Source of the DNA: Siphonobacter curvatus
GTDB taxonomy: Bacteria; Bacteroidota; Bacteroidia; Cytophagales; Spirosomataceae
Direction: 5' to 3'
DNA: 64,000 nt
NCBI RefSeq assembly: GCF_002943425.1
Contig: NZ_PTRA01000001.1
Span: 3,100,001 to 3,164,000, forward strand
The notes under the pieces are model-generated. The model had not been told where the DNA came from, searched no databases, and saw nothing but the letters and a program-made list of their open reading frames with translations. Numbering within the stretch: the first letter of the stretch is position 1; each line of letters starts with the position of its first letter. This document shows, piece after piece, positions 55,660-57,614 of the stretch. The position numbers and the translations under genes were made by a program.

Positions 55660-56574
55660 TTAAAGTTTGCCCTGCATTCCCCGGAGGAACTCTTCAATAC
55701 CCATGCGTTTCTTGCCTTCCAGCTGTAGTTCGTCGATCGCCAGCCAGCCGTCGCTGCAGCGGAATTGCAGATACGTTTTGTGATCGGTTCGGTAACTGCC
55801 GGGTTCGGCTGTATCCGTTTGTTCCGCAAAGGAAGCCCGGTATACTTTACAATTTTTGCCGAGAAGCGTAGTCCAGGCCGCCGGATACGGCGACAAACCC
55901 CGGATGTGATTCCGAACGGAAGTAGCGGATTGCTGCCAGTTGATCTCGCAGGTTTCCTTAAAAATCTTCGGAGCCATCTTGATTTCTTCGGCTTCCGGTT
56001 GCGGAATCTGCGGATACTCGCCCGCTTCAATGGCCCGAACGGTTTTCAGTACCAATTGCCCTCCCCGTTTCATCAGTCGCTCGTACACCAATCCTACCGT
56101 ATCGTCCTCGCTAATGGGTTCTTTTTCCTGAAAAATCAGTGGACCCGTATCAATCTCGTGTTGCAGAAAGAACGTCGTTACCCCCGTTTCCGTTTCACCG
56201 TTCATCAAGGCCCAGTTAATCGGAGCGGCTCCGCGGTATTGCGGTAATAACGAGGCATGTAGGTTAAACGTACCTTTAGGCGGCATATTCCATACCACTT
56301 CGGGTAACATCCGAAAAGCAACGATGACCTGAAGGTCGGCTTGATAACTTTTGAGTTCTTCCAGAAACTCCGGGTTTTTCAGTTTCTCGGGTTGTAATAC
56401 GGGCAATCCCACCGATACGGCGTATTGCTTCACGGGCGACTGCTGTAATTGTTGGCCCCGTCCGGCGGGCTTGTCGGGAGCCGTCACGACCGCCACTACT
56501 TCGCACTGGTTTTCCACTAGGGTGCGTAAGCTTTCGACGGCAAATTCGGGCGTTCCCAGAAATATAATTCTCAT
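55660..56574 (-). CDS. fmt: Methionyl-tRNA formyltransferase
   Basis: The 304-residue enzyme formylates initiator Met-tRNA. Motifs: MRIIFLGTPEFAVESL, APDKPAGRG and the catalytic FNLHASLLPQYRGAAPINWA with the SLLP loop; the C-terminal tRNA-binding domain follows (IRGLSPYPAAWT). Length is normal. It is not next to def; it stands as a single gene before the greA leader. Confidence 0.95.
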   Translation of the reverse strand: MRIIFLGTPEFAVESLRTLVENQCEVVAVVTAPDKPAGRGQQLQQSPVKQYAVSVGLPVLQPEKLKNPEFLEELKSYQADLQVIVAFRMLPEVVWNMPPKGTFNLHASLLPQYRGAAPINWALMNGETETGVTTFFLQHEIDTGPLIFQEKEPISEDDTVGLVYERLMKRGGQLVLKTVRAIEAGEYPQIPQPEAEEIKMAPKIFKETCEINWQQSATSVRNHIRGLSPYPAAWTTLLGKNCKVYRASFAEQTDTAEPGSYRTDHKTYLQFRCSDGWLAIDELQLEGKKRMGIEEFLRGMQGKL

Positions 56575-56753: not shown

Positions 56754-56783
56754 TTGCTTTTGGCGATAAATGTGCTAATTTTG
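56754..56783 (+). promoter_or_regulatory. Promoter of the greA leader/small RNA
   Basis: TTG (56754-56756), 19 bp spacer, and TAATTTTG (56776-56783) match the Bacteroidota sigma promoter in both boxes and spacing. Transcription would start near 56790, nearly 290 nt before greA. Confidence 0.65.
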
Positions 56784-56789
56784 TTCATC

Positions 56790-56919
56790 CAATAACAAAG
56801 CAGCTGTTAGGTAGTAGATAGAAGCGGTTGCTGTTGGAACTTCGGCGAGAAGATTGACTCTGTAAAGTAAGCCCAGGGGCTTTGTCAGCAGAACGATCTT
56901 GTCACCGTTCTTTTTTTTT
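56790..56919 (+). ncRNA. Candidate small RNA in the greA leader
   Basis: From the predicted start near 56790, a closing stem ACAAAGC (56795-56801) / GCTTTGT (56879-56885) encloses about 77 nt, and directly after it AGAACG (56890-56895) / CGTTCT (56906-56911) forms a hairpin followed by a run of nine T. This looks like a complete transcription unit of about 130 nt. A greA leader RNA (GraL) from early termination is known in E. coli; this one is inferred by analogy. No Rfam family was recognised; 6S-type RNA remains possible. Confidence 0.5.
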
Positions 56920-56927
56920 GTCGTTAC

Positions 56928-57015
56928 GTTAGAAGTCCCAAGCACAGGCATACTGAAGATCAGGCCGTTATTCACTACACTGCCTGATTTTTATCCTGTG
57001 CTTACTCGTTCTAAC
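56928..57015 (+). other. Rod-like RNA fold before greA
   Basis: Three nested perfect stems: GTTAGAA 56928-56934 with 57009-57015, AAGCACAGG 56940-56948 with 56995-57003, and ATCAGGC 56959-56965 with 56982-56988. Internal loops of 5x5 and 10x6 separate them and the apical loop is 16 nt. No T run follows. It lies 67 nt before the greA ATG. Confidence 0.55.
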
Positions 57016-57082
57016 TCAACCAATAGCCTCTTGGCAGAGAGCTAGTAAAAAACGTTAAACCTATAAAATTAGATTACTGATT

Positions 57083-57556
57083 ATGGGAAATATAGCCTAT
57101 TACACGGAAGAAGGTCTAAATAAGCTGAAAGCCGAATTACACGAACTGAAAACCAAAGGCCGTTCGCATATTGCTCATCAGATTGCGGAAGCCCGTGATA
57201 AGGGCGATTTGTCCGAAAATGCAGAATACGACGCAGCAAAAGAAGCTCAGGGTTTGCACGAATTGAAAATTGCGAAACTCGAGCAACTGTTAGCCAATGC
57301 CCGTATTTTGGATGAGTCCATTATTGATAGCTCAAAAGTAGCCATCATGTCAACTGTGAAAATTAAAAACAAGCGGAACAACATGATTGCAACCTATACA
57401 CTAGTAGCTGAAACGGAGGCTGACGTGAAAACGGGCAAGATTTCCGTGCAATCGCCTATTGGCAAAGGATTGCTGGGCAAACAAGTAGGTGAAATGGCCG
57501 AAGTATCGTTGCCTAATGGAAAAGCGGAATTTGAAGTGCTCGAAATTTCCCGTTAA
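57083..57556 (+). CDS. greA: Transcription elongation factor GreA
   Basis: The 157-residue protein has the GreA N-terminal coiled coil (YTEEGLNKLKAELHELKTKG, RDKGDLSENAEYDAAKEAQ with the conserved acidic tip) and the FKBP-like C-terminal domain (SPIGKGLLGKQVGE). It rescues backtracked RNA polymerase by stimulating transcript cleavage. Length matches E. coli (158). A long structured leader upstream suggests regulation at RNA level. Confidence 0.96.
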   Translation: MGNIAYYTEEGLNKLKAELHELKTKGRSHIAHQIAEARDKGDLSENAEYDAAKEAQGLHELKIAKLEQLLANARILDESIIDSSKVAIMSTVKIKNKRNNMIATYTLVAETEADVKTGKISVQSPIGKGLLGKQVGEMAEVSLPNGKAEFEVLEISR

Positions 57557-57577: not shown

Positions 57578-57614
57578 AAACGAGGTTTGATCTGGGATCA
57601 AACCTCGTTTTTTT
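57578..57614 (+). terminator. Terminator after greA
   Basis: Arms 57578-57592 and 57596-57610 form a perfect 15-bp stem (AAACGAGGTTTGATC) with a 3-nt loop, followed by a T run. Confidence 0.9.

Follow-up and report, generated by a model that had tools for sequence, protein, structure and literature searches.

GraL of Escherichia coli, which arises from the greA leader, is by analogy the nearest functional analogue of the greA leader analysed here. The E. coli work describes a terminator in the leader, autoregulation by active GreA and levels of GraL that follow those of GreA, a loop that its authors call hard to classify (PMC6829880). A premature terminator combined with an antiterminator has been described at greA in Proteobacteria (Enterobacteria), bacilli and Clostridia, with greA/rnk ranking seventh among the attenuated gene families (Naville and Gautheret 2010, PMC2965389). 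By contrast with most of the leaders considered below, no upstream ORF is described in the passage of that paper concerning greA, and its main text lacks words beginning with Bacteroid-, Flavobacter- or Cytophaga-. Among the titles and opening abstract lines of the papers listed by literature searches, none reported an attenuator of greA in Bacteroidota or a greA-associated upstream ORF, and neither the Flavobacterium psychrophilum nor the B. thetaiotaomicron transcriptome paper names greA in its main text. Attenuators of the trp/his type are built, in order, of a short ORF, an antiterminator that is overlapped by the ribosome, a terminator and the downstream gene. The family greA leader has the same order of elements, but greA is not an amino-acid biosynthesis gene, and the family ORFs, which are enriched in CGA and encode an unconstrained peptide, show no run of a single control codon among those listed.

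In the window, i.e. the whole 64,000-nt stretch of Siphonobacter curvatus DNA that was analysed, the succession of a promoter, an early terminator-like hairpin with a T run, and greA is confirmed as real. The promoter (56754-56783, + strand) is of the Bacteroidota type, with TTG at 56754-56756, a 19-nt spacer and TAATTTTG at 56776-56783; by alignment its -7 box is at the same place in 6/6 species of the window's genus, reading TAACTTTG in G083. The predicted transcription start, at ~56789, lies 294 nt 5' of the greA ATG (57083), in agreement with the first-pass annotation, which had placed such a promoter about 290 nt upstream of the gene. The 6-bp hairpin with nine T that it had reported is likewise present about 100 nt downstream of the promoter: in T1, a candidate intrinsic terminator (56890-56919, + strand), AGAACG (56890-56895) faces CGTTCT (56906-56911) across a 10-nt loop and runs into T9 (56911-56919), and the predicted product, expected at ~130 nt, comes to ~131 nt by coordinates. 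Compared with shuffled leaders, the leader folds with z -2.6 over 131 nt and z -3.4 over 293 nt. The gene downstream (57083-57556, + strand; NCBIfam NF001263.0, E 4.6e-53) encodes the transcription elongation factor GreA, and directly 3' of it a strong intrinsic terminator is found, with 15 pairs and a T run (57578-57614). On the other side fmt (55660-56574, - strand; NCBIfam TIGR00460.1, E 1.9e-82) is divergent from greA, so neither T1 nor T2, a further hairpin described below, both on the + strand, can terminate the fmt transcript. A generic promoter/terminator scan of the window listed neither the greA promoter nor T1, because it is limited to E. coli hexamers and loops of at most 8.

The sequence supports the GraL-like layout of early termination that the first-pass annotation had proposed, in that an intrinsic terminator lies between promoter and greA on the same strand (here by sequence), with a predicted short released RNA and predicted cis control of greA. 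By contrast with GraL, the family leader is longer and contains an antiterminator, joined in most relatives by an upstream ORF, and no relation to any Rfam family was found. Rfam gave no match on the window at gathering scores and none in the 501-nt leader region up to E 10; in 20 relatives there were four sub-threshold matches, none of them inside the greA leader. No Rfam family, among them the 6S models that had been suggested for comparison, explains the leader. 6S-Flavo RNA (RF01685) is found in the same phylum; a 6S identity was rejected by the absence of any Rfam match up to E 10, and an RF01685 search of the genome gave no match, though the positive control also gave none.

The window's family, which we take to be Spirosomataceae, was sampled through 89 of 121 genomes (70 first, then 20, one of them, G023, being repeated); G023 is a false miss in the 70-genome counts and is absent from the 69 leaders, though it does carry the element. 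In 69/69 family leaders T1 is preceded, at a distance of 87-170 nt, by a TAnnTT[TC]G box, and the frequency of this motif in control upstream DNA (96 per 67,750 nt) is such that the leader boxes exceed chance. After identical leader sequences had been merged for folding and alignment, 62 distinct leaders remained; the inner three pairs of T1 are identical in 60 to 62 of them, and the T1 stem is their consensus structure (RNAalifold), which shows T1 alone because the alternative structures exclude each other. A covariance model, R1, matches the window, itself one of the 62 training sequences, at 56840-56916 (E 4.1e-5). It gives one match per genome in 55 of 61 family genomes, including genomes outside the model, all 55 lying directly upstream of greA by comparison of coordinates, and no match in 98 class genomes, the window's own left out; both searches used stricter filters, so that weak copies may have escaped. 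With a single greA-adjacent match per genome (55/61), and none in the 98 class genomes, we reject a regulon of this element, and with a further box in only 1/69 family leaders we also reject a separate greA promoter after T1. Order-level leaders show that the AACGG stem recurs in other Cytophagales families. Outside the family, an upstream ORF, MSKFNPNLGVITRVVLWKDS, is found in L139 (the same stretch as L247; Microscillaceae); it stops 32-33 nt short of an AACGG terminator and is possibly an independent or older occurrence.

The family leaders differ in length, yet an ATG-started ORF of at least 8 codons, ending at -39 to -28 from T1, is found in 55/69 leaders and 24/25 genera; dinucleotide-shuffled leaders had such an ORF in a mean of 3.6 and a maximum of 10 of 69 (300 rounds). 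Widening the stop window to -39 to -20 brings the count to 61/69, and in the second fetch of 20 genomes 18 have the ORF, with stops at -26 to -35. The total is 79 of 89 family genomes, with stops 23-39 nt before T1 (28-36 nt in 66/79), where G007, which has a variant hairpin outside the T1 pattern and no ORF, is scored as a miss. Examples from named species are Dyadobacter L084, L085 and L087 and Larkinella humicola L086, with stops at -30 to -33. In L020, L022, L025 and L030, which represent four genera, the ORF stop is directly followed, before T1, by a hairpin that has a T run of its own, e.g. AATCACTCCTGCGAGTGATTTTTT. By position, the ORF would allow a ribosome to cover the antiterminator arm described below in the same 79/89 genomes.

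The peptide encoded by the upstream ORF is not conserved: within-genus changes fall on the three codon positions in the numbers 236/231/251, and 76 codon changes are synonymous and 384 are not. This absence of conservation led us to reject an arrest peptide, and it is also a point against an attenuation reading. No run of one control codon was seen among the ORFs listed. CGA accounts for 63% of ORF Arg codons vs 5-26% across the genes of ten genomes of the family and 20% at codons 2-15 of those genes, and its genus-weighted count is 28.2 in frame vs 11.4 and 8.9 in the other frames. One CGA is, however, common by descent to six related genera, so the apparent enrichment is suggestive only. The ORF is absent from all four genomes of genus g13 and from G007, which also counts against attenuation.

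The segment around the ORF stop has a predicted pairing partner within T1. In the window, folding and the covariation test define an antiterminator whose 5' arm (56847-56863, + strand) comprises GA (56847-56848), AAGATTG (56850-56856) and TCTGT (56859-56863) and overlaps the stop codon, and whose 3' arm (56888-56903, + strand) comprises 56888-56892, CGATCTT (56894-56900) and 56902-56903; folded without the T1 3' arm, the window leader has z -2.2. Since the antiterminator 3' arm shares nucleotides with both the loop and the 5' arm of T1, the two predicted structures are mutually exclusive. Between the arms lies an apical hairpin (56869-56882, + strand), seen in the G000 and G060 folds and in the alignment, and kept in the sister genome G060 via two substitutions and a register shift; a compensatory pair there was considered and rejected, as the alignment shows the shift with two substitutions instead. 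Across the family, folds of the same kind recur: without the T1 3' arm, the 5' arm and loop of T1 pair upstream, mostly with a segment 28-45 nt before T1, enclosing a stem, P1, and the mean z of such folds is -1.8 over 25 genera.

Exchange of segments between genera argues that the two sides of this pairing have changed together. Over 25 genera, matched segments pair at -8.16 vs -7.14 kcal/mol for shuffled combinations, with a median of 0.2% of shuffles as low (maximum 1.3%), or 0.3% (maximum 2.8%) with a shorter T1 segment; for the control segments, by contrast, 94% (upstream segment) and 25% (P1 3' half) of shuffles were as low. Another cut of the test gave 17 of 2000 shuffles as low. The inner stem P1 covaries, one pair being GC in 23, AU in 20 and GU in 9 cases, and for the whole structure 11-21 of 500 shuffles were as good in covariation score (11/500), doubly changed cells and paired share; the whole structure also scores above all slid versions. 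Measures of pair count and pair type showed no excess (313 and 407 of 500 shuffles as good). Taken column by column, the outer helix is partially supported, with 50.8 and 73.8% of cells paired, counts that are blurred because the antiterminator register shifts between genera; in some genera (g4, g12, g14, g16 and g24) the pairing is short or is displaced in the 5' direction.

The effect of a ribosome was modelled by barring from pairing the region between 15 nt 5' and 12 nt 3' of the stop codon, a footprint of assumed size, with G007 left out of the 88 leaders. The T1 5' arm is paired upstream with a mean probability of 0.63 in the free leader and of 0.31 with a ribosome at the stop, a fall seen in 31/34 genera, and 0.91 of the partner mass lies inside the assumed footprint. 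In a longer context (n=79) this probability is 0.63 without a ribosome, 0.45 when one is at the stop and 0.62 when it is nine codons earlier. In the model, a ribosome at the ORF stop is thus predicted partly to free the T1 arm, whereas one nine codons earlier does not. The smaller effect in the longer context and the 3/34 genera without a fall count against the attenuation reading.

On the features that were computed, i.e. conservation, ORF geometry, exclusive structures, covariation and the modelled ribosome effect, we favour a model in which the greA leader of the family is a ribosome-mediated transcription attenuator, with GreA made when translation lags; we consider this probable, while far from certain. 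RNA polymerase would start at the greA promoter and soon reach T1, the 5' arm and loop of which could pair instead with the upstream segment that overlaps or adjoins the stop codon of the short ORF, so forming the antiterminator. A ribosome at the stop would cover this segment, T1 would form and a short RNA would be released; if translation were absent, or lagging early in the ORF, the antiterminator would form and greA would be transcribed. GreA would thereby be produced when the leading ribosome, which also prevents backtracking, is missing. What we infer in this model is where transcription starts, that it terminates, that the ORF is translated, that the ribosome exerts control, and the physiological sense.

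GreA rescues stuck RNA polymerases, and Gre factors can also restart complexes that have backtracked. A study of coupling describes how backtracked polymerase is pushed forward by a coupled ribosome (PMC7165469). As ribosome and Gre factors both relieve backtracking, it would be physiologically sensible for greA expression to depend on the lack of a ribosome. It may be that the leader is more specifically a sensor of transcription-translation coupling for GreA, where an ORF of arbitrary peptide is slowed by rare CGA codons and the antiterminator, and so GreA, would be made when the ribosome is absent; this narrower proposal is possible and is advanced tentatively.

The leader in the window departs from this family form. 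It contains no ATG between 56784 and 56919, and the frame in question is a remnant or a TTG-started ORF, MLLELRRED (56828-56857, + strand), with TTG at 56828 or 56834 and TGA at 56855-56857, 34 nt before T1. In the genus sample of six genomes, five species lack the ORF ATG, i.e. the window's own and four of its five congeners, an observation that tells against attenuation there. In the remaining congener, G020, an ATG is present in the frame (MKSSMQTRTIHPLGLRRED), which closes with RRED*, its stop lying at -34; the window keeps LRRED* and the same -34. The alignment shows the block TTCGGCG(A/G)GAAGATTGA in 6/6 congeners, the conserved genus blocks including the antiterminator 5' arm with its TGA, and T1, and the stop codon is kept in 6/6. 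In the window's species either a TTG start would serve, or control by the ribosome would have weakened while the T1/antiterminator pair and a second hairpin remain.

That second hairpin is genus-specific, 88 nt long and predicted by folding and alignment (56928-57015, + strand), and the 113-nt stretch that holds it folds to -40.9 kcal/mol. Its inner, terminator-like stem, T2, pairs 56954-56965 with 56982-56993 and is associated with T5 at 56988-56992; the outer stems, with 5' arms at 56928-56934 and 56940-56948, close after the inner T run. The T2 inner stem is found in 6/6 congeners, its sequence changed in G020 and in G046/G072/G083, and the outer stem is weaker in G020. The hairpin could be a second terminator or an mRNA stabiliser. 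T1, by comparison, has an energy of -4.5 kcal/mol in the window and in G060 vs -8.7 to -9.7 kcal/mol in the four other congeners, being weak because one stem pair has been lost, in G000 and G060 only (2/62).

These observations bear on the first-pass annotation, the overall interpretation of which is partly supported. Its suggestion that most transcripts might end here as a small RNA finds no support, T1 being weak and the competing antiterminator strong. The 7-bp closing stem that it described does exist (ACAAAGC, 56795-56801, with GCTTTGT, 56879-56885), but it lacks conservation: one of its pairs is broken in the sister G060 (GGTTTGT), which is 98% identical, and the four other congeners have a different 5' region without it. 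The comparison with greA upstream regions of relatives that it had suggested bore out conservation of the layout, and there the antiterminator and T1 segments covary. What that reading lacked is a proposed switch between terminator and antiterminator, the ORF upstream of greA in the relatives, the hairpin at 56928-57015 and the spread across the class.

On these observations the leader in the window is a derived, possibly ribosome-independent version of the family switch. An explanation compatible with the attenuator model, and one that we consider quite possible, is that control by the ORF operates in the family and has been lost in the window's genus, where folding kinetics, a protein or T2 would now control greA. 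The lack of the ATG in 5/6 congeners, the T2 inner stem in 6/6 and the lost T1 pair speak for such a loss; the retention of stop codon and antiterminator arm in 6/6 congeners, and the possible TTG starts in G000, argue against it.

Beyond the family, the arrangement was followed in three hand-chosen or ranked sets: 40 of 139 class genomes, hand-chosen, with greA on the plus strand; 40 of 107 genomes of the order with a match, hand-chosen, all outside the window's family; and named loci, the best 80 of 594 across the phylum, rich in Flavobacterium. A terminator was scored as a hairpin of -4 kcal/mol or lower with at least 5 T in 8, within 250 nt 5' of greA, the scorer using a hand-entered energy table, and a box as TAnnTT[TC]G up to 160 nt before the terminator, a 250-nt view that misses some real promoters. 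A terminator precedes greA in 69/70 family genomes, 78/80 named loci (best 80 of 594) and 30/40 class genomes, and box and terminator together in 55/70, 76/80 and 27/40, respectively. In 271 control genes from twenty 20-kb stretches the corresponding numbers are 72 and 8, and for control genes with an intergenic gap of at least 100 nt box and terminator occur in 4/132. Judged from these sequence patterns, the order promoter, terminator, greA is a class-wide rather than a local arrangement.

Variants of it were seen in several genera. In the Pedobacter/Mucilaginibacter loci L097, L099, L100, L115, L121 and L140 the 5' arm of the greA leader hairpin carries ATGTAG (start-stop), which is absent in L116 and L124, and absent within the hairpin in Sphingobacterium L089 and L108; such a minimal start-stop could let a ribosome open the terminator. 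Two successive terminator-like hairpins precede greA in L115, L116, L153 and L154 (Mucilaginibacter, Aequorivita and Winogradskyella).

The wide spread of the arrangement bears on a simpler, GraL-like explanation, in which a constant or GreA-dependent share of transcripts would end at T1, so that a small RNA arises and greA is damped, while the ORF has no role. Many other Bacteroidia have no room for an ORF, the gap between box and hairpin having a median of 11 nt and being at most 20 nt in 46/76 named loci (from the best 80 of 594), and the window itself has no ATG-started ORF. In E. coli, moreover, catalytically active GreA is described as raising GraL and lowering read-through into greA (PMC6829880). 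Simple termination leaves unexplained, however, both the narrow position of the ORF stop in 79/89 family genomes and the covarying antiterminator, and we regard it as rather unlikely, though less so than the alternatives that follow.

It is very improbable that the element is a stand-alone, trans-acting small RNA that lies before greA by chance, greA having a promoter of its own. The T1 stem sequence is conserved beyond the need of a terminator, as its three near-invariant inner pairs indicate, and the recurrence of the AACGG stem in other Cytophagales families would also suit such an RNA. Set against this, a further TAnnTT[TC]G box between terminator and greA is found in 1/69 family leaders, 0/76 named loci (best 80 of 594) and 1/27 class genomes, and in the named loci (best 80 of 594) the median distance between the end of the T run and the greA start codon is 28 nt, with less than 45 nt in 49/76; all 55 model matches, too, adjoin greA. 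With almost no box after the terminator, greA transcription, on this sequence evidence, probably passes through the leader terminator. That the hairpin is the terminator of an upstream gene, or a chance hairpin, can practically be dismissed. In some distant genomes greA and the gene before it share a strand, so that the hairpin could serve that gene too and part of the class count could be 3' terminators, and terminator-like hairpins on the opposite strand of greA regions are frequent (16/70 family, 40/80 named from the best 80 of 594, 16/40 class), which makes a hairpin alone weaker evidence than box plus hairpin, but fmt is divergent in the window and the box precedes the hairpin far more often at greA than in the control genes (8/271).

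The survey of the Bacteroidia supplies many natural variants of a terminator in front of greA, with promoter and terminator often only ~10 nt apart, and in the family whose leaders carry an upstream ORF the position of the ribosome suggests itself as the concrete signal that is sensed. If the proposal of a coupling sensor is true, these bacteria would control an elongation factor in response to coupling, by a device built upon a GraL-like terminator that is class-wide.
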